In this document: positions 2-16,479 of the stretch, one piece after another
Layout of the letters: each line of letters opens with the position of its first letter
Position numbering within the stretch: the first letter of the stretch is position 1
Source of the DNA: a virus
Virus record (IMG/VR): IMGVR_UViG_3300009173_003877
Coordinates: 1 to 23,634 of that record
Direction: 5' to 3' (one strand)
Length of the DNA stretch: 23,634 nt
Made by a program: the position numbers and the translations under genes
The notes under the pieces: model-generated
Seen by the model: the letters and a program-made list of their open reading frames with translations, nothing else
Told to the model about the DNA's origin: nothing
Database searches by the model: none

Positions 2-532
2 CCAAGAAGTAAGTCGCTAGCAAATGCTGCTAAACGCCAGTTCGCTAAGGATTATCCTGACGTGCAAGTTGGTATCGACGGAAGAGAAGGCTGGTTAACT
101 GTTAATGGTAAAAAAGCCGTTAATATGTCTCAGGCTTCCGGCTCCCCACTTTCTATGGACGATATTATTGATCAAATGAAGCAAGCGTACCTAGGTCATC
201 CTATGTCACCCCAAGAAGTACCAGAAGCTAGTCCAGGATCTCGACCCGGGGAACATAAGCTAGATTTTGGTAAAGATATCGGAACATACAATTATCGCAG
301 CGAGGGTGCCAACATGAAAATCACAAAAAGACAACTTAGAAGAATCATCAAGGAAGTTGTTAACGAAGCTAAAAAACCACCCACTGATGAAACTATCAAA
401 CCACATATGAGTCAGTATCAGACCTCGGATGATCCTTACGAGGTAGCAGAAGAAATCGGCAAAGAATATGGTTGGAATCAAAAGCAAATAGAAACTGCTG
501 AAAGTCTTATCAGAAAGAGGTATATTAGATAA
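2..532 (+). CDS. Leader-family ORF, 5' partial, with internal leader
   Basis: The frame is open to the left edge, so the true start lies outside the window. The first ~104 codons encode an unrecognised segment (contains GREGWLTVNGKKAVNMSQ). It then runs without a stop into a full leader, MKITKRQLRRIIKEVVNEA, whose ATG is at 314. GAGGG at 302-306, 7 nt upstream of that ATG, looks like a ribosome-binding site, so a separate 72-aa protein may start at 314, either instead of or in addition to the read-through product. The part after the leader (KPPTDETIKPHMSQ, then a predicted helix around EEIGKEYGWNQKQIETAE) has no recognisable domain. The upstream part is probably the C-terminal end of another leader gene, fused by loss of a stop; that is inference. 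The stop overlaps the next start (TAATG). Confidence 0.7.
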   Translation, partial: PRSKSLANAAKRQFAKDYPDVQVGIDGREGWLTVNGKKAVNMSQASGSPLSMDDIIDQMKQAYLGHPMSPQEVPEASPGSRPGEHKLDFGKDIGTYNYRSEGANMKITKRQLRRIIKEVVNEAKKPPTDETIKPHMSQYQTSDDPYEVAEEIGKEYGWNQKQIETAESLIRKRYIR

Positions 533-768
533 TGAAAATCACAAAACGACAGCTTAGAAGAATTATCAAAGAAGAGAAGCAAAAGCTCTTGCATGAAGGT
601 CAGGTCCAAGAGGAAACCCTGTTCGACGCCCTTGAACAGTACGTCATGGTACTTGACGAAGAAATGGGTTATGATGTCCCTCGAGATCAGCTCAAAGCTG
701 AAGTCTTGAAATTTGTTGATCAATATTTTAAGCAGACGGAAGAGCCGCCAGGAGGATGGGACCAATGA
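532..768 (+). CDS. Leader-family small protein (78 aa)
   Basis: ATG at 532 overlaps the previous stop (TAATG), so translation is probably coupled. Residues 1-15 are the leader MKITKRQLRRIIKEE, continued by KQKLLHEG, which contains an L-x-E step followed by a small residue. The remainder is acidic and helical (ALEQYVMVLDEEMGYDV...), with no Cys and no known motif. Function unknown. Membership of the family rests on the leader alone. Confidence 0.8.
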   Translation: MKITKRQLRRIIKEEKQKLLHEGQVQEETLFDALEQYVMVLDEEMGYDVPRDQLKAEVLKFVDQYFKQTEEPPGGWDQ

Positions 769-1034
769 AAATCACAAAGAGACAACTGAGAAGAATCATA
801 AAAGAAGAGAAGCAAAAACTGCTTAACGAAGCAATGCCTGGACCGTCTTACGGCCAATCACGGCCAAGTAAAGATTTCAATGAGCAAATCCCTCGAGATG
901 ATCGTGCATTCTTAAAGGCAATGAAAACCATCATGGATCAGCTGATGATTTTGGAGCCGAAAGCAAGAATCCAAAACGCTGAGACTCTTATTATGAACTT
1001 GGAAACTGTCATTGATCAAGCGAAGCAAGGATAG
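765..1034 (+). CDS. Leader-family small protein (89 aa)
   Basis: I chose ATG 765 rather than the upstream in-frame ATG at 756, because GGAGG at 751-755 is correctly spaced for 765 and the leader starts exactly there. The start overlaps the previous stop (ATGA). The leader runs MKITKRQLRRIIKEEKQKLLNEA. L-N-E-A is the best match in the window to the T4-type prohead-protease consensus (L/I)-x-E before a small residue. The rest has a Pro/Ser-rich linker and then a two-helix C-terminus (FLKAMKTIMDQLM ... ETLIMNLETVIDQA). Product function is unknown. Confidence 0.8.
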   Translation: MKITKRQLRRIIKEEKQKLLNEAMPGPSYGQSRPSKDFNEQIPRDDRAFLKAMKTIMDQLMILEPKARIQNAETLIMNLETVIDQAKQG

Positions 1035-1038
1035 AAAA

Positions 1039-1629
1039 GTGAAGATTACTAAAAGGCAGTTAAGAAGAATCATTAGAGAAATGCACCCTCGTGCCGGTGT
1101 GGATGATGCTATATTCAATTATGAAGAATGGGCACGCGAAAGAGGTTCACCTCCGGGCGCTAGCTCAGTTATTGCTAGCTACTTCGTTTCCAAAGGTAGC
1201 TTTTCAGCGCCCGATATGCGAATGTTGGGTGATCACTACGGCATATCAGTGGAGGATATCCAAAGAGAAGTTAGCACGCAACGAAAAGAAATATCTGCCG
1301 GCGGTTTATCCCAAGAAGTCCCCGAATTAACAGGCGGTCGTCGATCATCTTGGCAGGTTAGAAAAGAAAAAGAATTAGGAGAATCAGTGAAAATTACAAA
1401 AAGACAACTAAGAAGAATCATTAAAGAAGAGAAAGCTAGGTTACTTAATGAGCAAGGTCCTCCTTCTATGGATGCTAAAACTGCCGATGCTGCCCAGCTC
1501 CTGCAAACTGCTTATTACAACCTAGATGATTTAGTTGGTGGTTCGACTGATGATGGTGTAGTTGATGATGTCCTTATGAATATGGAACTGATAAAGAACG
1601 CACTTCACATACTTGGAGTTGTCCTCTAA
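1039..1629 (+). CDS. Leader-family protein with two leaders (fusion ORF)
   Basis: The start is taken as GTG 1039 because the leader (VKITKRQLRRIIREMHPRAG) begins there and AAGG lies about 8 nt upstream. The first half continues as an unknown domain with a segment YGISVEDIQREV that looks helical. A second full leader (VKITKRQLRRIIKEEKARLLNE) begins in frame at GTG 1387, preceded by AGGAG with ideal spacing, and is followed by an acidic two-helix tail ending ALHILGVVL. The ORF may yield a 196-aa fusion, a 80-aa protein from 1387, or both. MHPRAGVDDA after the first leader recurs almost unchanged in the gene at 6486. No known fold recognised. Confidence 0.75.
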   Translation: MKITKRQLRRIIREMHPRAGVDDAIFNYEEWARERGSPPGASSVIASYFVSKGSFSAPDMRMLGDHYGISVEDIQREVSTQRKEISAGGLSQEVPELTGGRRSSWQVRKEKELGESVKITKRQLRRIIKEEKARLLNEQGPPSMDAKTADAAQLLQTAYYNLDDLVGGSTDDGVVDDVLMNMELIKNALHILGVVL

Positions 1630-1970
1630 TGAAAATCACAAAAAGACAACTAAGAAGAATCATCAAAGAAGAAAAGACCAAAGTGCTCCAAGAGTATGGT
1701 GCTATGTCCATGGAGTCTTTAAACCCAACGATCGCCTTCGCTCAGGCTTGGGCTGGCTTAGGAGACGCGATCCAGGCGCAGATGATAGATCTTGTTAATG
1801 CCCATGTAGAAGGTCGCTTGGAAGACGCTATATACGAAATCAATCCCAATGCTTTTGAACGCGCTCAAGAAAGGCTTACTATACCCTTAAGAATGATGGA
1901 CGGCGAAGACGCAGATGAGCTGCAAGACATGATAGAACAAGTCTCACAAGCAATAAAGGGCATGGAATGA
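1629..1970 (+). CDS. Leader-family small protein (113 aa)
   Basis: ATG 1629 overlaps the preceding TAA (TAATG). The leader MKITKRQLRRIIKEEKTKVLQEY has an L-Q-E step. The rest is Ala- and acid-rich and helical (FAQAWAGLGDAIQAQMIDLVNAH is one predicted helix within residues 33-57), ending DMIEQVSQAIKGME. No catalytic motif or membrane segment. The first 35 bases of the gene are identical to those at 5811, one of the closest leader pairs at DNA level. Function unknown. Confidence 0.8.
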   Translation: MKITKRQLRRIIKEEKTKVLQEYGAMSMESLNPTIAFAQAWAGLGDAIQAQMIDLVNAHVEGRLEDAIYEINPNAFERAQERLTIPLRMMDGEDADELQDMIEQVSQAIKGME

Positions 1971-2296
1971 AAATCACAAAAAGACAACTAAGAAGAATTA
2001 TTCGCGAAGCAATTGATAATGCCGGCAACGAGATCCCGGATCCTACAAAACGTCAGAGCTGGAAAGACCGCATGAATTCCATGGGCTATACTGATGGACT
2101 AGAAGGGAAAATGCCTGTATCTATGAGTAGCTTAGAAGATCCAGATTATATGGCGGGAAAAAAAGCTGGAGAAAGAGATAGTATGAATGATCCGCATGCA
2201 GATCACAGTTTCATCGAACGCGAAGAGGTATACGAAGGCACATCGCCAGACAATATGCCTGCTTCCTGGAAACAGATTTTAAAAGGAGTACTCTAA
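1967..2296 (+). CDS. Leader-family small protein (109 aa)
   Basis: ATGA overlap with the preceding gene. The leader MKITKRQLRRIIREAIDNAG is followed by a polar, Asp/Gly/Pro-rich segment (DGLEGKMPVSMSS, GKKAGERDSMNDPHADHS) that is less helical than in the sister genes and may be partly disordered. The E-A step after IIR (IIREA) is a possible processing site if the leader is a propeptide. Function unknown. Confidence 0.78.
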   Translation: MKITKRQLRRIIREAIDNAGNEIPDPTKRQSWKDRMNSMGYTDGLEGKMPVSMSSLEDPDYMAGKKAGERDSMNDPHADHSFIEREEVYEGTSPDNMPASWKQILKGVL

Positions 2297-2853
2297 TTAA
2301 AATTACAAAAAGACAACTAAGAAGAATTGTTAGGGAAGAAGCAGCTAAATCAACTAAAGAGTATGATGACGACTCTGCTTTAGTCGGAGACCAAGATAAG
2401 CTTCATGATAAGTTACAAAAAGCAATTATTGATAAAACAGTTACTGATCGCAAAAAAAAGAAAAACGAATCTACGAAAAGAATTACAAAGAGACGGTTAA
2501 GAAAGGTCATTAGAGAAGCTTGTGGCCTCGCTATGGGTGTTCCGGAAGCTTCTTTAGATTTTACACCTGCAATTGAAGAACCGTCAACAGACGTACCAGT
2601 CCCAGAAGATTACGATGCTGTTAGGGATCTCTTAGATGATAATTCTCAGCTTGTTGATCTGGCATTATCTTTTGTCATGATCAAAGCAGGGACTCATTGC
2701 GAGAAATCATCCGCACAAGCAATCATCGATCACTTGCAAGACAAGATTGGTAGTGATGTACAAGAAGAACCGGTTGAATGGGAAACCGGCCATGGAGCTG
2801 GAGATGAAGTATTTGGAATTAGCCTAGAAGCTAGAAAGAAGAGATTAAGATGA
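2296..2853 (+). CDS. Tandem-leader protein with ATT start (185 aa)
   Basis: The conserved leader begins at an ATT codon (2296-2298) exactly where its sisters have ATG, and this ATT overlaps the previous stop (TAATT in place of TAATG). There is no ATG, GTG or TTG in frame until ATG 2533, which lies downstream of both leader copies. Residues 1-16 read (I/M)KITKRQLRRIVREEA. After a Lys/Asp-rich linker a second, more divergent copy (KRITKRRLRKVIREA) occurs from codon 60; the codon before it is ACG (2473). The rest (DFTPAIEEPSTDVPVPEDYDA..., then a helix DLLDDNSQLVDLALSFVM) is acidic and unrecognised. If only ATG 2533 were used the product would be 106 aa without leader, which seems less likely given the conservation. 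Confidence 0.65.
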   Translation: MKITKRQLRRIVREEAAKSTKEYDDDSALVGDQDKLHDKLQKAIIDKTVTDRKKKKNESTKRITKRRLRKVIREACGLAMGVPEASLDFTPAIEEPSTDVPVPEDYDAVRDLLDDNSQLVDLALSFVMIKAGTHCEKSSAQAIIDHLQDKIGSDVQEEPVEWETGHGAGDEVFGISLEARKKRLR

Positions 2854-3215
2854 AAATCACAAAACAACAGCTAAGAAGAATTATCAAAGAAGAGAAGCGT
2901 AGACTCCTAAGAGAGCAAGAGGAACAGGTTGCTGCTGTAAATGGGGATGATCATCATTGGCCTCGAATTGACTGGTCCAATATCGGTGAGTTGGTTGATA
3001 AGTGGACAAAGATGGAAGAGGATGCTTGGGACACAGGAGATACCTCTATGAATCCAGATGATGTCTCTAATGTAGAAGCAAAGAGACACTGGGGCGACCA
3101 AGTTGAAGGCGCAGCTATGGACATGGAAGCTGAGTTAACTCTCCGAGTTCGGAGAGCTGCGCTTCAGACCATGAAAGAGTTTACTGATAAACTTATTAAC
3201 GGTGAGTATTCGTAA
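2850..3215 (+). CDS. Leader-family small protein (121 aa)
   Basis: ATGA overlap with the previous gene. The leader MKITKQQLRRIIKEEKRRLLRE carries Q instead of R at position 6 and an L-R-E step at residues 20-22. What follows is acidic, Trp-rich for its size (HHWPRIDWSNIGELVDKWTKMEEDAW) and ends in a long helix (DMEAELTLRVRRAALQTMKE). No known domain recognised. Confidence 0.78.
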   Translation: MKITKQQLRRIIKEEKRRLLREQEEQVAAVNGDDHHWPRIDWSNIGELVDKWTKMEEDAWDTGDTSMNPDDVSNVEAKRHWGDQVEGAAMDMEAELTLRVRRAALQTMKEFTDKLINGEYS

Positions 3216-3490
3216 TGAAAATTACAAAAAGGCAACTAAGAAGAATCATCAAGGAAGAGAGAGCTAGGCTTTTAAAAGAATCTGAAATTATTCAAGATCT
3301 TGATCCAAATGAAGTCTTGCGAATAGTTGAATCTTTACTTAACGAAGTTAGAGCTGTTGATAACGACCTGACTCGTGCAAATAGAGAAAGAGGACCGAGT
3401 ACGACCGCGCTCGTTATTCGTGCTCAAGATGCAAATAAAGGCGTATTAGATAAACTACAAAGATTACGTGCTATGATGTTAGGAATGTAA
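3215..3490 (+). CDS. Leader-family small protein (91 aa)
   Basis: TAATG coupling to the previous gene. The leader MKITKRQLRRIIKEERARLLKES has an L-K-E-S step; the extension ERARLL also occurs in the gene at 6175. The rest is an almost wholly helical segment (DPNEVLRIVESLLNEVRAVD ... GVLDKLQRLRAMMLGM) that could form a two-helix hairpin. Function unknown. Confidence 0.8.
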   Translation: MKITKRQLRRIIKEERARLLKESEIIQDLDPNEVLRIVESLLNEVRAVDNDLTRANRERGPSTTALVIRAQDANKGVLDKLQRLRAMMLGM

Positions 3491-3494
3491 AGTA

Positions 3495-3656
3495 TTGAAA
3501 GATGAAGATGTAATTTTGCTTAAGCTTGGTCTTCGTTTCGGTCCAGGTGAGATCGATAAGATCATCGATGATGCGATTGCTAGAAAGCGTAGACATCCTT
3601 TAGAAAATTACCATCTGCTAGTTAAAGAGTTGAAGAGGTTAAAAAAAAGAGGTTAA
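3495..3656 (+). CDS. Small leaderless protein (53 aa), TTG start
   Basis: The gap between two leader genes holds an open frame starting at TTG 3495 (reads LKDEDVILLKLGLRFGPGE) and ending GGT TAA at 3656. AGGA at 3481-3484 gives a ribosome-binding site about 10 nt upstream. The product has a hydrophobic N-terminal stretch, a GPGEIDKIIDDAIARKRR segment and a very basic C-terminus (LKRLKKRG). It lacks the leader found in all its neighbours. There is no ATG start and no known family; the evidence is frame openness, fit to the gap and sensible composition. Confidence 0.5.
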   Translation: MKDEDVILLKLGLRFGPGEIDKIIDDAIARKRRHPLENYHLLVKELKRLKKRG

Positions 3657-3662
3657 ACAAAA

Positions 3663-3902
3663 ATGAAGATGACGAAACGCCAATTGAGAAAAATTATCGT
3701 AGAAGCTTTAGCGTTAGACCTCGAAGTCGGTGATGTTATCTTGACTGGTCGCTTTAAAAATAAGCGAACAGTAGTTAAAAAAATTGGGACTGACGATATG
3801 GGTCAACCAACAATAAATGGGATGAAGGTTCTTAGCTTTAGGATAGAGAAACTTATGCCAAGATCGAAATGGAGCAAGAAATCTTTGGAAGAAGAAAAAT
3901 GA
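3663..3902 (+). CDS. Leader-family small protein with SH3/KOW-like body
   Basis: 79 aa. The leader is divergent (MKMTKRQLRKIIVEA) and short, with an I-V-E-A step. The body reads GDVILTGRFKNKRTVVKKIG, then QPTINGMKVLSFRIEKLMP, an alternating beta-strand pattern like a small SH3- or KOW-type barrel; this is a fold impression, not an identified family. It is the clearest beta-rich body in the leader array, where most others are helical. Confidence 0.75.
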   Translation: MKMTKRQLRKIIVEALALDLEVGDVILTGRFKNKRTVVKKIGTDDMGQPTINGMKVLSFRIEKLMPRSKWSKKSLEEEK

Positions 3903-4159
3903 AAATTACAAAACGCCAGTTGAGAAGAATTATTCAAGAAGAAGTAGGCCGCTTAAGCGAGACGCCTAATTGGAAACCGTTGAGTGGTGAGCATGCTAAG
4001 CAGTTGGGTGAACCAAAAGTTAGCGCAATTCATATGTCGGGCCGTAACAATGATGTAATGAGCCAGCTACATGCTGCTATTGATGCTTTAATTAATACTA
4101 TGGGAAATGAAGAAGCTCATCAAGAACTTATTGGTATTGTAGAAGATTGGGAAGGCTAG
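3899..4159 (+). CDS. Leader-family small protein (86 aa)
   Basis: ATG 3899 is preferred over the upstream in-frame start at 3869 because the leader begins here and the start overlaps the previous stop (ATGA). The leader MKITKRQLRRIIQEEVGRLSET includes an L-S-E-T step. The C-terminal part is a short helical pair (VMSQLHAAIDALINTMG ... HQELIGIVEDWEG), similar in layout to the tails of the genes at 765, 1387 and 5203. Function unknown. Confidence 0.78.
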   Translation: MKITKRQLRRIIQEEVGRLSETPNWKPLSGEHAKQLGEPKVSAIHMSGRNNDVMSQLHAAIDALINTMGNEEAHQELIGIVEDWEG

Positions 4160-4172
4160 GAGGCCTATTAAA

Positions 4173-5201
4173 ATGAAAATCACAAAACGACAGTTACAAC
4201 AGATAATAAAAGAAGAAGCTATGCAGGTTCATGAAATGAAACTATTTAATGAATCGGTAAGAGAAGCTTATAGCGAACAACTTTTGCTTAATTATCCCAA
4301 TGTTCTTTTAGAACATGGATATATTTCTAGAGCAACATATCATAGAGCTAAGAGAATGAAAACACTTAATGAATCTGGATTAGCTAATCTAGATATACAA
4401 GAGGGCTTTTTCGATGATGTTAAAGCGATGGCAAAGAAAGCCGGTGACGTAGCTATAGCAAAAGGCAAAGAGGCCGGCGGCGCAGCTATGGCAAAAGGTA
4501 AAGAGCTTGGAAAGGCCGGGATGGCAAAAGCTAAAGAACTCGGGGATACAGAGATTGACGTTAAAGGGGCACGTAAACGAATGAGCAGAGTCGGTGGCGA
4601 AGCTGGTGAATTAGCTGCCGGTGCCGGTGAGGCTATGTTAAACTTCATGGGTCCTATGGCTAAAAAGCTTGGAGATAAAGCAACAAAGTTTGCAGCAAAG
4701 AAACTTAAACAAATTGATAAGAATGGGCCAAAAGTGATGGCCTCAATTAGTAAGCACATTGGAAGCGCCGTCGATGCTACATTGTCTAAGTCAAAGAAAG
4801 CAGCAGGGTCAGGTATTAAGGGACTAGCGGATCTAATCACCAAAGCAAAAGAAGGCTTGACATTTGAGCAAATGGCGAAAAAAGAGCCCATAGCATTTAT
4901 GGCCACATATAAAGCTTTAGAGCAAAAAGTTGTGGGCATGAAGATAAAGGGTGTTAATACACCCAAATCTGCTGAAGCTACACTAGGAATTTTTCAATCG
5001 CCTGATGGCCAAAAGGCGCTAGCTGCCGCGGCTAAGAAGTCAAGCATGTCAGCACCTGAGCTAGAGACAATTCTAGGATTATATGTATTTCAAGCACGCT
5101 ATGTGCCAATCGCAACTAAGGCCGCTGCGCAAGTACAAGAAGCATTTATGTTTGAAAATAGAATTAAAAGATCTCTTAGAAAGAAGCTTAAAAGATTATA
5201 A
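4173..5201 (+). CDS. Large leader-family protein, Lys/Ala/Gly-rich (342 aa)
   Basis: This is the largest member of the leader array and has its own ribosome-binding site (AGGAGG at 4158-4163). The leader is MKITKRQLQQIIKEEAMQVHE; LFNE and LLEHG follow as further acid steps. Residues ~85-130 contain imperfect repeats of the type AKGKEAGGAAMAKGKELGKA, giving a very basic, low-complexity amphipathic region reminiscent of LEA-like or histone-tail segments. A second half (~residues 220-320) is more globular and Ala-rich. The C-terminus is strongly basic (NRIKRSLRKKLKRL). A DNA-packing or internal virion protein would fit the composition, but no family is recognised. Confidence 0.78.
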   Translation: MKITKRQLQQIIKEEAMQVHEMKLFNESVREAYSEQLLLNYPNVLLEHGYISRATYHRAKRMKTLNESGLANLDIQEGFFDDVKAMAKKAGDVAIAKGKEAGGAAMAKGKELGKAGMAKAKELGDTEIDVKGARKRMSRVGGEAGELAAGAGEAMLNFMGPMAKKLGDKATKFAAKKLKQIDKNGPKVMASISKHIGSAVDATLSKSKKAAGSGIKGLADLITKAKEGLTFEQMAKKEPIAFMATYKALEQKVVGMKIKGVNTPKSAEATLGIFQSPDGQKALAAAAKKSSMSAPELETILGLYVFQARYVPIATKAAAQVQEAFMFENRIKRSLRKKLKRL

Positions 5202-5202
5202 A

Positions 5203-5445
5203 ATGAAAATCACAAAACGACAGCTAAAAAGAATCATTAAAGAAGAGAAGAAGCGTATCCTTCGAGAATCCCCTAGATACATGGACTCTAGTCAAGAAAA
5301 GGCAGCGGTGAAGGCCGCCGCGGCGGAGACCGGCAATACTATTGATTCTTTACAAATGCTAATTGATCTTAACTACCACCGTTTTACAGAAGAAGAAAAT
5401 AATACGCTTGAACAAGCTATCGATATTCTAAACGATATATTATAA
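5203..5445 (+). CDS. Leader-family small protein (80 aa)
   Basis: ATG 5203 begins the leader MKITKRQLKRIIKEEKKRILRES; the in-frame start at 5083 lies inside the previous gene and is rejected. The leader ends in an L-R-E-S step. The body is Ala-rich and then a two-helix C-terminus (TIDSLQMLIDLNYHRF ... NNTLEQAIDILNDIL). Function unknown; the helical-hairpin tail resembles several sister genes. Confidence 0.8.
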   Translation: MKITKRQLKRIIKEEKKRILRESPRYMDSSQEKAAVKAAAAETGNTIDSLQMLIDLNYHRFTEEENNTLEQAIDILNDIL

Positions 5446-5456
5446 TAAGAGGTAAA

Positions 5457-5810
5457 ATGAAACTTACAGAAGTACAACTTAGAAAGATCATTAGAAAAGA
5501 GCTTTTAAGAGAGATGAGAATAAAACAACCCATCTCATTAGAGGAATTACAGTTCACTCCTTCCGAGCAACGAGGGGATATGGCTCTACCTGGAATTGGT
5601 GCTTATAAGGTCGTTCGTACGCTAGAAGAATTTGAAAATTGGAAAGCAGATTTCTTGAATCGGTACGGCCCGACGATGATTAGTTGGGATCACAATGGGT
5701 GGAATGTACAGAACGAAAAATTCAAAGCTGAGCAAAGTAATGAGAATAAACGATTTATAACCCATCACAGCGGAATGGAAAAAGCGCTTGGAAGAAAGTT
5801 GAGTTATTAA
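5457..5810 (+). CDS. Divergent leader-family protein (117 aa)
   Basis: An AGAGG ribosome-binding site lies upstream. The leader is the most diverged in the array (MKLTEVQLRKIIRKELLREM) but keeps the M-K-x-T spacing, the L8/I11/I12 hydrophobic face and an L-R-E step. The body is mixed alpha/beta and aromatic (GIGAYKVVRTLEEFENWKAD, then MISWDHNGWNVQNEKF) and looks globular. No match to a known family comes to mind. Confidence 0.75.
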   Translation: MKLTEVQLRKIIRKELLREMRIKQPISLEELQFTPSEQRGDMALPGIGAYKVVRTLEEFENWKADFLNRYGPTMISWDHNGWNVQNEKFKAEQSNENKRFITHHSGMEKALGRKLSY

Positions 5811-6173
5811 ATGAAAATCACAAAAAGACAACTAAGAAGAATTATTAGAGAAGAGAAGACGAAGATTCTGAACGAAGTAAGGGGCAACGCGAGTGAATAT
5901 GACGAGCATGTTGAGCTCCGTACCGAGAGAGAAGATGGATATCTAGACTGGATGCATGAACAGTTGGCTCCCAAAGCTAATGATATTTTAGCTATGCTAT
6001 TAAATAGAAAGCATGCTCCATATAATAGTGAAGAAATGGCAGAGATAATAAATGATGGATCTTGGATTGACGCAGTCAATTTAGGTGAATCGCTATTAGA
6101 AGCGTTTGAGATAGATTTCGAAAAGCAAGAAAAAATATACACTGGCGAGATCGCCCCGGACGAAGAGTGGTAA
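5811..6173 (+). CDS. Leader-family small protein (120 aa)
   Basis: The start directly follows the previous stop. The leader is MKITKRQLRRIIREEKTKILNEV, with an L-N-E step. The body is markedly acidic and helical (EYDEHVELRTEREDGYLDWM; NLGESLLEAFEIDFEKQEK; ends APDEEW). The strong contrast between basic leader and acidic body recalls prohead core proteins of T4-like phages, but no homology is claimed. Confidence 0.8.
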   Translation: MKITKRQLRRIIREEKTKILNEVRGNASEYDEHVELRTEREDGYLDWMHEQLAPKANDILAMLLNRKHAPYNSEEMAEIINDGSWIDAVNLGESLLEAFEIDFEKQEKIYTGEIAPDEEW

Positions 6174-6174
6174 A

Positions 6175-6486
6175 ATGAAAATCACAAAGCGACAACTTCG
6201 AAGAATCATCAAGGAAGAGAGAGCTAGACTATTAGCTGAACAACCTCGTCGGCCGATGCCAAAAGGCATGGCGATCGAACGTGATGCATTGATCGTAGCA
6301 GATAAGCTCGAAGGCGCCTTCTTTGATGCCCTTGAAGAATTGGGTGCAGATGCACAAACTGCGGATGATATTGAATACTTCCTTAAGTCAACTGCTGTAC
6401 TAGATACTTCATTCGCAAATGCATTAGAAAACTATAATAAAAAATTAGACATGATGGGTGGAAACCCTAAGCCAAGGAATGTATAA
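6175..6486 (+). CDS. Leader-family small protein (103 aa)
   Basis: The leader MKITKRQLRRIIKEERARLLAEQ has an L-A-E step and shares ERARLL with the gene at 3215. The body begins basic and Pro-rich (PRRPMPKG) and then becomes acidic and helical (GAFFDALEELGADAQTADDI). TAATG coupling to the next gene. Function unknown. Confidence 0.8.
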   Translation: MKITKRQLRRIIKEERARLLAEQPRRPMPKGMAIERDALIVADKLEGAFFDALEELGADAQTADDIEYFLKSTAVLDTSFANALENYNKKLDMMGGNPKPRNV

Positions 6487-6908
6487 TGAATATCACAAAG
6501 AGACAACTTCGAAGGATTATTCGAGAAATGCATCCACGAGCAGGCGCAGATGATGCTTACGTTGCAGATCTTGAAAGACAGGAAGACGAATTAGCTACTC
6601 AGATTAGACACGCTTCTAAAGACATACATGGAAGAAAAGACATATATGATCTCGAGGGTAAATCTATAGAAGAGCTCGAAGATATCCTATATGATTTAGA
6701 CAATTCTCGTGAGCAAGATGCTATTGATAATATGTACAGAGATGAAGAAGAAGATGCGATGGGAAGAGATCATGATTTATCTCCAGCTGAATCTGCTCCT
6801 ATACGCCAAGGGATGAAACGTAGACCTGCTGGAAGTAAAGCAGTACGCAGAATGGAAAATGTTAGTAAAATTAAAAAGATCATTAGAGAGGTTTTAAGAA
6901 ATGATTGA
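6486..6908 (+). CDS. Last leader-family protein (140 aa), extra C-terminal motif
   Basis: The leader is MNITKRQLRRIIREMHPRAG, followed by ADDA, almost identical to the extended leader of the gene at 1039. The centre is very acidic (IEELEDILYDLDNS..., RDEEEDAMGRDHD). The C-terminus returns to a basic amphipathic helix, VSKIKKIIREVLRND, which resembles a shortened leader core. It overlaps the next gene by 8 nt and marks the end of the array. No known family. Confidence 0.78.
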   Translation: MNITKRQLRRIIREMHPRAGADDAYVADLERQEDELATQIRHASKDIHGRKDIYDLEGKSIEELEDILYDLDNSREQDAIDNMYRDEEEDAMGRDHDLSPAESAPIRQGMKRRPAGSKAVRRMENVSKIKKIIREVLRND

Positions 6909-8606: not shown

Positions 8607-9068
8607 ATGGATAAAGACAGCGAAATCAGGCGTCTGAGAGAATATATTCATCTACAACTCAGGCGCGAGATGAAGGAGAATAATAATGAAAGATCCGGAA
8701 TATTCTTTTTTCTTAAGGAAGGCGTTACTAAATCTCGAACGCGCAAAGCACATAGCGATCAAAGTGACAGAACTAGAAAAAGTAAAAAAGATAAATTCTC
8801 TCATGCTAGAGATCAAAAAAGAACTCAAGAGATAAGAGAAGAAATTGGCAGAAACGTGCATACAATTCGTCAAAACCCTTATCAAGTTGACGAAGTTTTA
8901 TCAGATGTTAAAATTGAATCATATCCGGTTCCCAACGGATATTATGCTGCTGTATCTTTAAGGGATGATGAAAATATAAAAAAATCTAAAATATTCGTTG
9001 ACGAAGCAGAAGTTGATGTTTGGATTAGAAATGTTGCGCTAGAGATGACTCAACAGTTTACTCAATAA
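8607..9068 (+). CDS. Unknown ORF (153 aa), middle overlapped by another frame
   Basis: The frame is open throughout. The N-terminus (MDKDSEIRRLREYIHLQLRR) and the C-terminal ~75 residues (QVDEVLSDVKIESYPVPNGY, FVDEAEVDVWIRNVAL) look like real protein. The middle (~residues 32-76, SRTRKAHSDQSDRTRKSKKD) is low-complexity and basic and coincides with a well-formed ORF in the +1 frame at 8686. Either two genes overlap, or this frame is two separate short genes joined by a chance-open stretch. GGAGGG lies ~14 nt before the ATG, rather far. The 3' end overlaps the convergent protease gene by 11 nt. No family recognised. Confidence 0.5.
   Translation: MDKDSEIRRLREYIHLQLRREMKENNNERSGIFFFLKEGVTKSRTRKAHSDQSDRTRKSKKDKFSHARDQKRTQEIREEIGRNVHTIRQNPYQVDEVLSDVKIESYPVPNGYYAAVSLRDDENIKKSKIFVDEAEVDVWIRNVALEMTQQFTQ
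8686..8835 (+). CDS. Overlapping small ORF (49 aa) in +1 frame
   Basis: ATG 8686 has a strong ribosome-binding site (GAAGGAGAATAATA just upstream). It encodes MKDPEYSFFLRKALLNLERA, then KHIAIKVTELEKVKKINSL, ending in a stop at 8833-8835. The product is a plausible amphipathic helical protein with Leu spaced as in a coiled coil. It lies wholly inside the ORF at 8607, in the region where that frame looks least like protein. It is short, so evidence is limited to the ribosome-binding site and composition. Confidence 0.5.
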   Translation: MKDPEYSFFLRKALLNLERAKHIAIKVTELEKVKKINSLMLEIKKELKR

Positions 9069-9834
9069 TTGCGTTGAGATCTTGAGCTTTTATCTCAACA
9101 TACCTTTCCATAACATCTTTCAAGTCTTTATATTTTATTGATAACGCTACATGCGGAAATATACTGTGCGTTCTTTGGATTATACCGACAACCTTGTTAT
9201 CTTTGTTATATATCGGCGCGCCAGATCCACCGGGTGCAGTGGGAATAGTATAAAAAGAGAATTTTTTATAATCTCCTGTGTATAGTCCTGTTAGCACTGG
9301 AACCATTCCAACATGAAATATAGATGCTGGTGCAGAAATAGAATAATAATTATCGTGTAATACCGGCTTGCTAAGTGCTATTTTGGGTAGGTTTTTGATA
9401 ACTGGATGAACTGCATCGATGATGCACATATCATATTTTAAGTTAACGTATTTTATTTTTCCTTTTATTTCGTGTCCCGTATAAGATTTTAAAGTTATGC
9501 TAGTAAGTACTTTAGACTTATTTGGTATATTGTTCCAAATTTCAAATGCTGGTCCCAAACAGACATGTCCTGCAGTCATGAAAGATGTGTACCCCTTATA
9601 AGAAAAGAAAGTTCCCGATCCCAAAGCTACCCTTTTTCCCGCCGAAGAGTAATCGCATTTTTTTTCTTTCGTTTTTTTATCTTCTTTGCACTCATAAACT
9701 AGCAACTCTACAGCTGACTTAACTAAAGCAAAAGCTTTTTGGGGAGGTTTTATTTTTCTAACAGTGATTGCGCAGCTTGTTTGGAGGCACGATGCAATTA
9801 ATAAAAGCGATGTAAAAATTAGCTTCTTAATCAT
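9058..9834 (-). CDS. Secreted trypsin-like serine protease, lipoprotein
   Basis: 258 aa on the minus strand. The N-terminus MIKKLIFTSLLLIAS-C16 is a good lipoprotein signal peptide with lipobox I-A-S-C. The domain shows the chymotrypsin-fold catalytic set: H90 in FMTAGHVC, D135 in KYDMCIID and S204 in APGGSGAPIYN, with GSGTFFS leading the first strand and VVGIIQRTH after the serine. It would act at the cell envelope. It is one of two minus-strand genes here and has its own promoter-like sequence, typical of a phage moron gene. Similar to the S1 family of degradative or regulatory proteases; the substrate is unknown. Superinfection exclusion or envelope modification are guesses. Confidence 0.85.
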   Translation of the reverse strand: MIKKLIFTSLLLIASCLQTSCAITVRKIKPPQKAFALVKSAVELLVYECKEDKKTKEKKCDYSSAGKRVALGSGTFFSYKGYTSFMTAGHVCLGPAFEIWNNIPNKSKVLTSITLKSYTGHEIKGKIKYVNLKYDMCIIDAVHPVIKNLPKIALSKPVLHDNYYSISAPASIFHVGMVPVLTGLYTGDYKKFSFYTIPTAPGGSGAPIYNKDNKVVGIIQRTHSIFPHVALSIKYKDLKDVMERYVEIKAQDLNAIIE

Positions 9835-12069: not shown

Positions 12070-13245
12070 ATGACTACTTTCAAAGAAAATAAAGGAATCT
12101 CTGATCGATCTGGCTCAGATCGGCAAAGGCATAGAGATAAAATAGATAAAGCAATACGCGAGGGTATTCACGACATTGTTGCAGATGAATCTATAATAGG
12201 CCAAGACGGGAAGAAAAAGATAAAAATTCCAGTAAAGGGAATTAAAGAATATCGTTTCGTTTATGGAGAAAACGAAAATAAAAAAACCGTAGGTTCTGCC
12301 CCGGGTAAGAATATAGCAAAGGGACAAAAGATCGGGCAAAAAGATCGAAAGATGCCTGAAGCTCCCGGAAAAGCTGGGGATCAAAAGGGAGAAGAACATT
12401 ATGAAGTTGAAATTACTCTAGATGAGCTAGCAGCATACCTGTTTGATGAGCTTAAACTCCCAAATATGGAAAAGAAAAAATTCAAAAATATTTCTAGTAA
12501 ATCCTTTAAAAGACATGGCTACAGAAATCATGGAATTAGACCTAGACTAGATAAAAAAGAGACGATAAAAAAGAAGATAAAGAGAAGAAAAAAAGCTATA
12601 AAAAATGAAACCCATGATCCTGAGTCGGACGAGCGCTTTGGGTTTCACCACGACGATCTAAAGTATCGTCACATTAAAGAAAAAAAGAAACTTACTTCAA
12701 ATGCTGCAATTTTTTTCATAATGGATGTTTCTGGTTCAATGACAAAAGAAAAGAAATTTCTCGCAAGAAGCTTCTTTTTTCTGCTTTATCATTTTATTAG
12801 ATCTAAGTATGAAAATGTTGAACACGCATTTATCGCACATGATACCGTAGCTAAAGAAGTTTCAGAAGATGATTTTTTTGGAAAAACATCAACTGGGGGA
12901 ACACTAGTTTCTTCTGGTTTGGGTAAATGTTTAGATATAATAGACTCTAGATACCATCCCGAAGCTTGGAATGTATATGTGTTTCAATGCTCCGATGGAG
13001 ATAACTGGCCAGAAGACAATGATTTTGCTTTGAAATATGCTAATAGATTAATTAACTTAAGCCAGTTTTTTGGATACTGCGAAATAGAACCCAGAAACAG
13101 TAGGGATAAAAGGTGGCTTCAACTGTCTGTTTTGTCTGAGATTTTTAGTTCGTTAACCAGAGATAATTTTAAAATTGCAGAAATTAGAAACAAAGACGAT
13201 ATATGGCTAGCTTTTCAGAGATTTTTTGGAGGTTTTCATGAGTGA
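12070..13245 (+). CDS. yeaH: YeaH/YhbH-family protein (DUF444, VWA domain)
   Basis: 391 aa, the normal length for the family (B. subtilis YhbH is about the same). The N-terminal block DRQRHRDKIDKAIREGIHDI, IIGQDGKKKIKIPVKGIKEY, then a Gly/Lys-rich stretch is diagnostic of YeaH/YhbH. From ~residue 213 comes a von Willebrand A domain with a MIDAS motif (MDVSGSM; D219, S221, S223) and a TSTGGT segment. In bacteria YeaH works with PrkA/YeaG and SpoVR/YcgB in stationary-phase and nitrogen-stress physiology or sporulation; its molecular action is unclear, with metal-dependent protein binding expected. First gene of a three-gene cassette; it overlaps spoVR by 8 nt. Confidence 0.92.
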   Translation: MTTFKENKGISDRSGSDRQRHRDKIDKAIREGIHDIVADESIIGQDGKKKIKIPVKGIKEYRFVYGENENKKTVGSAPGKNIAKGQKIGQKDRKMPEAPGKAGDQKGEEHYEVEITLDELAAYLFDELKLPNMEKKKFKNISSKSFKRHGYRNHGIRPRLDKKETIKKKIKRRKKAIKNETHDPESDERFGFHHDDLKYRHIKEKKKLTSNAAIFFIMDVSGSMTKEKKFLARSFFFLLYHFIRSKYENVEHAFIAHDTVAKEVSEDDFFGKTSTGGTLVSSGLGKCLDIIDSRYHPEAWNVYVFQCSDGDNWPEDNDFALKYANRLINLSQFFGYCEIEPRNSRDKRWLQLSVLSEIFSSLTRDNFKIAEIRNKDDIWLAFQRFFGGFHE

Positions 13246-14542
13246 TTGGAATATAAAAGATCTAGAAGAATGGGACGAAAAAATCATTGAGTTAGCAAAG
13301 TCTAAAAACCTAGATTGGTTTCCTATCTCGTATGAGATATGCGATTACTATGCAATGATCGGTAACATGGCGTATCATGGTATGCCGCTTCATTACCGGC
13401 ACTGGAGCTACGGTAAATCTTTTGAAAGAACTCATCAGATGTACAACATCGGAGCCGAGGGCTTACCTTATGAACTAATCATCAACAGCGATCCATCAAT
13501 TGCTTACTTAATGAGAGAAAACCCTTTTTATCTGCAGCTTCTCATTATGTGTCACTGCATCGGACACTCTGATTTTTTTAAAAATAATTTGACTTTTTCT
13601 GATACTAGTCCTGAAAATATTATACAAAGATTCAAAAATGCAAAAAAAAGAATTGACGGTTATATAGAAGATCCCAGTATCGGAGTTGAAAAAGTAGAAA
13701 GAATACTAGACGCTGCGCATGCGCTTTCGATGCATATTCCGCCAAATTGTAAACCCTACATTCCTCACAAAAAAAGAAGAAAAGATCTAATATCTAAGAT
13801 CAAATCTGGACACGAAGACTATATTGGTCGTGATCCGGATTCGTACCCAATAGAACCCGAAATAGACTTATTAGCATTTATTGGAGAGATGGCTTTAAAT
13901 TTAGAAGACTGGGAAAGAGATCTCATTGAGATTGTTAGACAAGAATCTTTCTACTTTATGCCACAGATTAGAACAAAGATCATGAATGAGGGTTGGGCAT
14001 GCTTTTGGCATTACAGGTTGATGCATGAACTAGAGCTTCCGCAAAAGTACCACATACCTTTCATCAAGAGTCATAACCAAGTCGTTCGACCGCATCTAGG
14101 TCGGATCAATCCTTACCATTTAGGATTTTACTTATTTAGAAAAATTGAAGAAAGGCATGGATTAGAAGAATGTTTCATTGCTCGCGAAGTTTGTCATGAT
14201 GAATCTTTCATAAGACAATATTTAACTGCAGAAGACTGTTATGATTTGAATTTATTTTCATATTCGCTTTATAAAAAAGATTACATCATTAATGAGATTT
14301 CTGATTCAGAAGGTTGGAAAGAAATTAAAAATTCTTTAATTAAGCAAGTAGGCTCAAATTCATCGCCAAAAATCATAGTAAGCAAATTAAAATCTAATAA
14401 TGTTTTAAGGATTCATCATGAACATGATGGGAGAGACTTGGAATTAAGTTACGCAGAAAAGGTTATTGATTATATTAGTACACTATGGGGTGGTGTTGTT
14501 AGACTAGATACCATTATAGAAGATGAACCGTTTGAAATTTAG
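13238..14542 (+). CDS. spoVR: SpoVR/YcgB family protein
   Basis: ATG 13238 is chosen over TTG 13226 because TTGGAGG at 13226-13232 is a fitting ribosome-binding site. 434 aa, slightly shorter than YcgB (~510) and B. subtilis SpoVR (~470). Family signatures are visible: WFPISYEICDYYAMIGNMAY, LHYRHWSYGKSFE, YELIINSDPSIAYLMREN, then MNEGWACFWHYRLMHELELP and HLGRINPYHLGFYLF. SpoVR affects spore cortex formation in Bacillus and stress-related functions elsewhere; biochemical activity is not firmly known, though the conserved His/Glu positions suggest metal binding. It is translationally coupled to yeaH upstream and sits 8 nt before prkA. Confidence 0.92.
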   Translation: MSDWNIKDLEEWDEKIIELAKSKNLDWFPISYEICDYYAMIGNMAYHGMPLHYRHWSYGKSFERTHQMYNIGAEGLPYELIINSDPSIAYLMRENPFYLQLLIMCHCIGHSDFFKNNLTFSDTSPENIIQRFKNAKKRIDGYIEDPSIGVEKVERILDAAHALSMHIPPNCKPYIPHKKRRKDLISKIKSGHEDYIGRDPDSYPIEPEIDLLAFIGEMALNLEDWERDLIEIVRQESFYFMPQIRTKIMNEGWACFWHYRLMHELELPQKYHIPFIKSHNQVVRPHLGRINPYHLGFYLFRKIEERHGLEECFIAREVCHDESFIRQYLTAEDCYDLNLFSYSLYKKDYIINEISDSEGWKEIKNSLIKQVGSNSSPKIIVSKLKSNNVLRIHHEHDGRDLELSYAEKVIDYISTLWGGVVRLDTIIEDEPFEI

Positions 14543-14550
14543 GAGATGCT

Positions 14551-16479
14551 GTGAGTAAGAAAGATTTTTTGAAGCTTATAGAAGCGCAAAGAAAAAAGTC
14601 GAAAAAAGAAAAATTCAAAGGAAGTTTTCTGGAATTTCTAGAAAAAGTAAAAGAAGAACCTACGATAGCCGATCCGGCGCACAAGAGGCTATACGACACG
14701 CTAATTAGCCACGGTGTCTCTACGCTTCTAGATAGCAACCCTAGAAAAAATAAAATATTCGATGGGGATAATATTAAAATCTATGATTATTTTAAAGACG
14801 AATTCTTTGGAGCAGAATTAATAATTTCGAAAATTATGAGTTTCTTAAAATCAGCAGCTTCAAAGGGGGAAGAGTCAAGGCAAGTATTATTGCTTATGGG
14901 GCCGGTGGGGGCAGGGAAATCAGCTATCACTGAACATGTTAAGAAATCTCTTGAGGGTGTTAGCTATTATTACATCAAAAATGATCCACAAAAGGGTAAC
15001 CCATTGCAGCTTATACCGCGTGGGATTAGAAAAGCTTTTCAAGAAGAATTAAAAGTTGATATCGAGGGTGACATATCATCCCCCATAAGGTTTCAACTCT
15101 TAGATGAAATGGGCGGTAAATACGAAGATTTTGAAATATTAGAGACTTCATTCTCCCAACGAGGAAGAAGGGGGATTGCATCTGTTCCGCCAATGGATGC
15201 AAACTCTCAAGACGTTTCAGTCCTCATTGGTTCCGAGGATATTTCAAAACTAGACTTATATCCCGAAGATGACCCCCGGGTACTCTCATTGAATGGTGCT
15301 TTTAATATCGGTAATCGTGGTATAGTAGAATTTATTGAGCTCTTTAAAAACGAAATAGAATTCTTGCACACAATCATTACAGCAACGCAAGAAAAAAGAG
15401 TTCCATCCCCGGGGAAACATGACATGATACACTTCGATGGTGTCATTATTGCTCATTGTAACGAAGCTGAATGGAACCGGTTCCAAAGTGAGCACACAAA
15501 CGAAGCTATTCTTGATCGCGTTGTTAAAATAAGAGTTCCTTATGTTTTAGAGCTTGACCAAGAGATCAAAATTTATGAAAAACTTCTTTCAAGGTCTAAC
15601 TTTGATAGTCACATTGCTCCACACACACTTAGGATAGCTTCAATGTTTAGTGTCATGTCACGGCTTAAGACTTCAAGCAAATGCGATTCGTTAACTAAGA
15701 TGAAGATCTATAATGGCGAAGAAGTAATTGAGAAAGGTCGAGTTAAGAAAATTGACATAAAAGATTTGAGGGAAGAAGCTAATAACGAGGGCATGAGCGG
15801 AATATCGACAAGGTTTATTATGAAATCAATTGATAGTGCCATCTCAGATAGCGATAAGGGTTTCATAACACCAATCTCTATCATGGATACGATAGCTAAA
15901 AACTGCAAGGAACAAATTGTAAATGATGATTTTAAACAAGAGTGCTTGACAATACTTCAAGATGTTGTAAGGAAAGAATATCTCAGAATTCTCGAGAATG
16001 AAATTGCAAAAGCCTTTGTTGCTGCTTATGAAGAACAAGCCCAGTCACTTTTTGAAACTTATCTAGATAATGCAGAAGCCTTTGCTATGAGATCTAAAAT
16101 CAAAGATAGAATCACGAATGAGGAAATGGAACCTGACGAGAAATTTATGACAACTATCGAAGAATCTATTGGAATTGTGGGCTCAGCCAAAGAGGGTTTT
16201 CGAGCCGACGTAACTGCTTATATGTTCGCGAAAGTACGTCGGGGTGGAACGGTAGATTATAGAAGTTATGAACCACTAAAAGAAGCAATAGAAAATTACC
16301 TCATAAATAGTGTTAAAGATATGGCGAGAATCGTGACTAAAGCTAAAACCCGAAATGATAAACAAAAGAAAAAGTATAATAACATGGTAAAAACGATGAT
16401 AGATGATTATGGTTATACAGAGGACTCTGCTGAAGAGATTCTTGTCTATGCTAGCAATAACCTTTGGAGGGATTCATGA
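14551..16479 (+). CDS. prkA: PrkA/YeaG serine protein kinase-AAA protein
   Basis: GTG start with AGGAG 6 nt upstream. 642 aa, full family length (YeaG 644). The AAA part has Walker A GPVGAGKS (residues 117-124), NPLQLIP, the long conserved stretch IASVPPMDANSQD and RGIVEFIELFKNEIEFLHT, then VIIAHCNEAEW and the arginine-rich region near AILDRVVKIRVPY. The C-terminal kinase-like domain contains EGMSGISTRFIMKSID. In bacteria it is a Ser/Thr kinase and also an AAA ATPase active under starvation, acting with YeaH and SpoVR. Here it closes the cassette and overlaps the next gene (ATGA). No key motif appears lost, so it is likely active. Confidence 0.93.
   Translation: MSKKDFLKLIEAQRKKSKKEKFKGSFLEFLEKVKEEPTIADPAHKRLYDTLISHGVSTLLDSNPRKNKIFDGDNIKIYDYFKDEFFGAELIISKIMSFLKSAASKGEESRQVLLLMGPVGAGKSAITEHVKKSLEGVSYYYIKNDPQKGNPLQLIPRGIRKAFQEELKVDIEGDISSPIRFQLLDEMGGKYEDFEILETSFSQRGRRGIASVPPMDANSQDVSVLIGSEDISKLDLYPEDDPRVLSLNGAFNIGNRGIVEFIELFKNEIEFLHTIITATQEKRVPSPGKHDMIHFDGVIIAHCNEAEWNRFQSEHTNEAILDRVVKIRVPYVLELDQEIKIYEKLLSRSNFDSHIAPHTLRIASMFSVMSRLKTSSKCDSLTKMKIYNGEEVIEKGRVKKIDIKDLREEANNEGMSGISTRFIMKSIDSAISDSDKGFITPISIMDTIAKNCKEQIVNDDFKQECLTILQDVVRKEYLRILENEIAKAFVAAYEEQAQSLFETYLDNAEAFAMRSKIKDRITNEEMEPDEKFMTTIEESIGIVGSAKEGFRADVTAYMFAKVRRGGTVDYRSYEPLKEAIENYLINSVKDMARIVTKAKTRNDKQKKKYNNMVKTMIDDYGYTEDSAEEILVYASNNLWRDS

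Follow-up and report, generated by a model that had tools for sequence, protein, structure and literature searches.

The stretch of DNA analysed here, referred to at its full length as the window, is the 23,634-base IMG/VR fragment IMGVR_UViG_3300009173_003877. Its left part holds an array of open reading frames (ORFs) that share a short N-terminal leader peptide. A profile search recovers 19 copies of this leader inside 17 open frames, all on the plus strand between 314 and 6527. The E-values reach 4e-14, which excludes a chance origin. The copies start at 314, 532, 765, 1039, 1387, 1629, 1967, 2296, 2476, 2850, 3215, 3663, 3899, 4173, 5203, 5457, 5811, 6175 and 6486; counted from the leader, the frames are 72-342 amino acids long. 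The exact sequence MKITKRQLRRIIKEE is present in five copies only (532, 765, 1629, 3215 and 6175), and the copy at 1387 equals it save for a GTG start. The most divergent copies are MKLTEVQLRKIIRKE at 5457 and KRITKRRLRKVIREA at 2476. A leaderless ORF at 3495-3656 breaks the run. At the left edge, the ORF cut short at 2-313 matches residues 20-95 of a leader protein in a related contig (L133:3493-4233) with 53% identity over 77 residues (E 1e-26), so the array extends leftward, the leader of this first protein lying off the edge. A preliminary description of this DNA had counted the same 19 copies in 17 ORFs and had let the array pass the left edge, and both statements hold. It had also placed one leader in consecutive ORFs: the leader is indeed shared, but it is neither identical throughout nor carried by an unbroken series.

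The leader comes in two lengths, 14 or about 22 residues up to a putative cleavage site, marked below by an arrow. The short leader ends MKITKRQLRRII[KR]E (IIKE↓A/S), with A or S as the next residue. The long leader continues EEK-A-[KR]-L-L-x-E and ends IIKEEKARLLNE↓Q/S/A/G. In the window the ORF at 314-532 is in frame with the truncated one and has its own Shine-Dalgarno (SD)-like site, GAGGG; it consists of the leader MKITKRQLRRIIKE↓VVNE and a 58-residue body. Long leaders, with their last residues given in brackets, precede the bodies at 532-768 (EEKQKLLHE↓G), 765-1034 (EEKQKLLNE↓A), 1629-1970 (EEKTKVLQE↓Y), 2850-3215 (EEKRRLLRE↓Q), 3215-3490 (EERARLLKE↓S), 5203-5445 (EEKKRILRE↓S), 5811-6173 (EEKTKILNE↓V) and 6175-6486 (EERARLLAE↓Q). 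Short leaders are found at 1967-2296 (IIRE↓A) and at 3663-3902 (MKMTKRQLRKIIVE↓A), the latter in front of a conserved GDVILTGRFKNKR body. At 3899-4159 the leader ends IIQEEVGRLSE↓T, and at 4173-5201 the leader MKITKRQLQQIIKEE heads a Lys- and Ala-rich protein of 342 residues with the LxE-type sequences LFNE↓S, LNE↓S and IQE↓G. The divergent leader at 5457-5810 is followed by a body that is 91% identical in the closest relative, L178 (G024). The final member, at 6486-6908, has the leader MNITKRQLRRIIRE↓MHPRAG and a body.

Two frames hold two leader copies each. The frame at 1039-1629 has GTG starts at 1039 (ending IIRE↓MHPRAG) and at 1387 (EEKARLLNE↓Q), the second with AGGAGA ahead of it. The frame at 2296-2853 begins with an ATT that overlaps the previous stop and has the SD sequence AAAAGGAG upstream; these three are the only non-ATG leader starts in the array. 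Its second copy, at 2476, is an internal leader-like stretch that lacks a start codon and keeps VIRE↓A. The body encoded by this frame has an ortholog in L178 that is 92% identical. Over all loci 33 in-frame second leaders were counted, 17 with and 16 without a start codon, and most of the latter retain an LxE-type site; further double-leader frames are L178:4949-6202 and L121:9209-10861. Such double-leader proteins may be polyproteins split by a protease.

Behind the leader the proteins differ. After removal of the leaders, no two bodies in the window are convincingly similar (best E 0.04). Over all loci there are 539 unique leader ORFs, and direct similarity sorts their bodies into 281 groups. 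Single-linkage clustering had merged 81 proteins via two-leader ORFs, and the recount of families therefore took a single representative from each group of directly similar bodies. Homologs of the body at 3663-3902 carry either this leader, another short leader that ends LFE↓M, or none at all, and the data support the leader as a separable module at N-termini. The bodies are thus dissimilar, as had been described, and neither a single ordinary domain that includes the leader nor one homologous family of bodies is found. The AlphaFold2 model of the 3663 protein has a leader helix at residues 5-16 followed by a small beta body, at a mean predicted local distance difference test (pLDDT) score of 70; a Foldseek search with it gave insignificant matches alone (best E 0.03), which were not used. 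The model of the 342-residue protein has low confidence (pLDDT 48) and is taken only as mostly helical.

Scans of the bodies against the families of PHROGs, Pfam and PADLOC were nearly empty: no significant known domain and a few weak single matches. A recognisable replication or metabolic domain was found in none of the 108 representative leader proteins scanned. One leader protein (L121:10869-11129) has a body like ribosome modulation factor (PF04957, E 6e-6, narrowly under the Pfam cut-off). Leader micro-proteins of about 41 residues are found in L018 (from 410), L020 (from 5934) and L062 (from 10193); they consist of the leader and a conserved C-terminus, PFGSGMEQAELDPEEEELIGHT, with almost no body, and are possibly a peptide cargo or a decoy.

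The two leader ends are nearly exclusive. With each body family represented by a single leader, a second [LIVM]xE at residues 18-25 is present in 4 of the 63 families with A or S at residue 15, and in 147 of the 190 families with E at this position (Fisher odds ratio 50, p 9e-25). A site of the form [LIVMF]xE↓not-E lies within residues 12-30 in 249 of 281 families, against about 30% in later stretches. The information content is 4.3 bits at the Glu of the site and about 0.3-0.4 past it, so that conservation ends at this Glu or one residue on; the long leaders were themselves selected for having this Glu. Following the second site, Q is enriched 4.8-fold and S 2.1-fold at P1', while L and P are depleted. 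In T4, gp21-type sites have the form [LI]-x-E↓ plus a small residue: FIAE↓A in ipII and ipIII, LLRE↓S in gp24 and FLTE↓A in gp23. Of 17 gp23 sequences from the marine group that carries the leader, 16 have [VIL]L[RK]E↓[ASQ] where the propeptide should end, and the other has ALRE↓S; Q after the gp23 site is the same unusual residue that is enriched after the second site of the leaders. From this likeness we infer that the leader ends are putative gp21-type cleavage sites at both lengths. Another array, in the 484 kb metagenomic phage L117 (LR756508.1, 211570-227635), has different short N-termini of a like kind (MKLQNILYE↓S, KFKSLLFE↓S, KLQDLLFE↓A and LRKIIKEETRDLLNE↓K), which suggests that cleavable leaders are widespread in huge phages.

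Scans of IMG/VR with the leader as query gave contigs of up to 293 kb and up to 41 copies per record. Peptidase_S77 (PF03420), the family of T4 gp21, is present in 15 of 24 leader-bearing records and gp23 (PF07068) in 15 of 28. They are the same 15 records, and neither gene is found without the other; the nine protease-negative records are all 135 kb or shorter. A partner gene, which had been proposed as something to look for, thus exists as the pair of S77 prohead protease and gp23. The PrkA gene of the window is common to 13 leader-bearing records. In L178 an array of 23 leaders is followed by PrkA as in the window, and about half of the window bodies are represented there, partly reordered.

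In the relatives the order of the head module is terminase, portal, protease, small proteins, a large scaffold-like protein and gp23; the names rest on gene order and sequence, with protease and gp23 tested by profiles. The small protein beside the protease has an N-terminus (for instance MAKITKRMLKGIVKECLVEILSE↓G) in exact register with the long leader through the P1 Glu. A profile of the array leaders, built without any protease-adjacent protein, places it next behind the true leader ORFs in a ranking of 415 head-module ORFs, with E 3.5e-4 in L080, 0.005 in L079, 0.045 in one other and no significance in three. Nine homologs of it follow the pattern [AS]K[IVL][TSK][KR]xxLKx[IL][IV]K[EQ]CLVEILxE. 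A profile-profile comparison between these and the leaders gives P 8e-8; this is supporting but not independent, since the register was set on the conserved KECLVEIL. A second small head-module protein shows this pattern less strongly (E 0.002). In L077 there are leader genes on both sides of the head module: four come straight after gp23, and others precede the terminase region. The records G008 (176.5-180.1 kb) and G011 (139.4-142.9 kb) each have two complete, adjacent gp23 genes.

Leaders are also found in bacterial assemblies. In one metagenome-assembled genome (MAG) all 30 leaders lie on a single contig of 305,838 bases that also carries the S77 protease. As the leaders of bacterial assemblies lie mainly on a few contigs and S77 stands alongside, we read these as phage contigs; a bacterial origin of the leader was rejected, since the sequence seems to be that of a phage binned with the MAG. 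Jumbo-phage contigs are apparently binned in MAGs of Methylococcaceae and Halobacteriovorax (L109/L112 NHDW01000006.1; L110 PBIO01000025.1).

The preliminary description knew of no named family with this organisation, but the internal head proteins of T4 have it. In T4 Ip1-3 and Alt an N-terminal capsid targeting sequence (CTS) is the sole shared part (PMC12373910; PMC3012670), and the Ip1-3 bodies are inhibitors of different GmrSD restriction enzymes (PMC12373910). For the packaging of IPIII its first 10 residues are enough; targeting and processing residues have been mapped there, and gp21 removes the CTS in the prohead (PMC9026906). At least 10 Ips are reported in T4 relatives (PMC12373910). 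As in IPI, IPII, IPIII and Alt, unrelated small bodies here have a short N-terminal leader alone in common. At the sequence level the leader ends, as in T4, with hydrophobic-x-Glu followed by A/S or similar, and relatives of the window encode the S77 protease family and gp23. The T4 leader has 10-19 residues, against 14 or 22 here. Unlike in T4, there are two alternative leader lengths, dense arrays and several in-frame double-leader proteins, and the copy number reaches 41 per contig compared with three IPs plus Alt.

Two other systems are alike in part. In phiKZ and SPN3US, head cargo of giant phages also has N-terminal propeptides cut by a prohead protease, gp245 (PMC10052503, PMC5694885). 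However, these propeptides are mostly long (111-254 residues), the bodies are paralogous and the motif is AXE↓, while the leaders described here end IIKE↓ or LLxE↓ after 14 or about 22 residues. In phage P1, an N-terminal signal (residues 1-30 of DarB) is sufficient to bring a reporter into the head, and the Dar cargo protects the DNA after injection; there are six Dar proteins, for which an array-wide shared leader is not described in that work (PMC9024508). The leader sequence is absent from the papers in the literature library searched, and tblastn of the leader in named phages gave one weak match, in a 484 kb metagenomic phage.

Taken together, the leader is very probably a capsid-targeting sequence and cleavable propeptide of a group of large T4-type marine myoviruses with gp23 and S77, a reading that builds on sequence patterns and on the analogy with T4. 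The leader helix would bind the scaffold core of the prohead, so that each leader-bearing protein is built into it. A gp21-type protease would then cut after the last Glu of the leader, at IIKE↓ in the short and LLxE↓ in the long form, and free the body inside the head. The bodies would stay with the DNA and, by analogy with T4, most likely be ejected into the host. With these steps the array would be a greatly expanded set of internal-protein cargo. Of the destinations that had been proposed for a shared tag (capsid core, nucleoid, membrane or a hub protein), the evidence favours the capsid core.

Several observations weigh against this interpretation. The window is a fragment without capsid or protease genes, and the link to head genes therefore runs via relatives that have its leader and PrkA. 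For the six further head-module regions that were inspected, the leader genes map elsewhere in the genome. Further, 32 of the 281 body families have no clear site. The T4 late promoter TATAAATA has two matches in the window, about the chance expectation, and none in the array. Leader profiles compared with the T4 head and ip regions gave a best E of 0.15, with no ipI, ipII or ipIII in the six best matches. Homology with the T4 CTS (MKTYQEFIAE) gave no signal, and we therefore propose that the leader works like a CTS and do not claim common descent.

What the bodies do is a separate and more tentative question. By analogy with T4 most of them could be injected effectors, which we regard as a fair guess that falls short of probable. 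The same reserve applies to a broader picture of an open "plug-in" cargo, in which any coding sequence behind a 14- or 22-residue leader would be packaged, trimmed and delivered; each virion might then inject about 20-40 different proteins from an accessory pool of hundreds of families, mostly takeover or counter-defence factors. It is also conceivable, though rather unlikely, that the leader leads to the prohead core while the proteins are structural fillers or scaffold parts that are kept or degraded in the head, with few or no injected effectors. The leader resembles the N-terminus of the small proteins encoded between protease and scaffold, the 342-residue member is helical in its low-confidence model, rich in Lys and Ala and has several LxE sequences, and T4 IPIII influences head morphogenesis (PMC9026906). 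However, 281 body families, and a gene content and order that differ from those of the closest relative, look like accessory cargo and not like a conserved scaffold.

It is improbable that the leader directs the proteins to some other hub (a membrane, a replication compartment or a chaperone, for example) and that the LxE ends are a by-product of an amphipathic helix. Its basic character, and the helix predicted for it in the sole model of moderate confidence, would fit such a tag. Left unexplained would be the two lengths, the near-exclusive choice between them and the stop of conservation at a gp21-type site, which is also where the gp23 propeptide ends; nor does the scan of 108 leader proteins, with its lack of replication or metabolic domains, point to such a hub.

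Selection on the leaders is at the protein level. For codons 2-14 of the window leaders the proportion of synonymous differences (pS) is 0.66 and that of nonsynonymous differences (pN) 0.10; in all eight arrays, the window and seven others, pS is 0.56-0.86 and pN 0.07-0.17. Identical peptides with unrelated codons are found again across contigs. An SD-like site precedes 73% of the leaders over all loci, compared with 12% of all ATGs in the window, and G has maxima at -9 and -10 upstream of the leader starts, indicating that translation normally starts at the leader Met. A scan for sigma-70-type promoters gave no excess. A purely DNA-level role of the repeated start, as a cassette that helps initiate translation or lets genes recombine while the peptide does nothing, is very improbable: gene order does vary between relatives, as expected if shared starts promote shuffling, but the codon data already contradict it, with synonymous sites near saturation and amino acids conserved. 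That the proteins form one fast-evolving homologous family, with the leader as ordinary orthology, has next to no probability: small groups of orthologous bodies exist across contigs, but the bodies of the window lack convincing similarity, the families are many and the predicted folds, in models of modest or low confidence, differ between all-helical and small beta.

The principle of one leader and many unrelated bodies is already known from T4; new are the leader family, the two-length design, the arrays, the copy number and the size of the cargo pool. If it is a targeting sequence, the leader can be read as an address label: hundreds of anonymous ORFs in large marine phages would become predicted virion cargo, the proteins likeliest to act during the first minutes of an infection, and head proteomics can test this. 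Since Ip1-3 of T4 turned out to inhibit Type IV restriction enzymes specifically, new counter-defence proteins may reasonably be sought in this pool. Further, a leader of two lengths with a sharp end allows a prediction of the sites that an unstudied gp21-type protease would cut.

The window also contains genes outside the array. Downstream of it, the opposite strand encodes a trypsin-like peptidase that has a lipoprotein-like signal (9058-9834). At 12070-16479 there is a phage-encoded DUF444 (YeaH)-SpoVR-PrkA set with Pfam E-values of 1e-110 to 1e-130; PrkA is found in 14 of 29 leader-bearing records, and also in Thermus phages and huge metagenomic phages.

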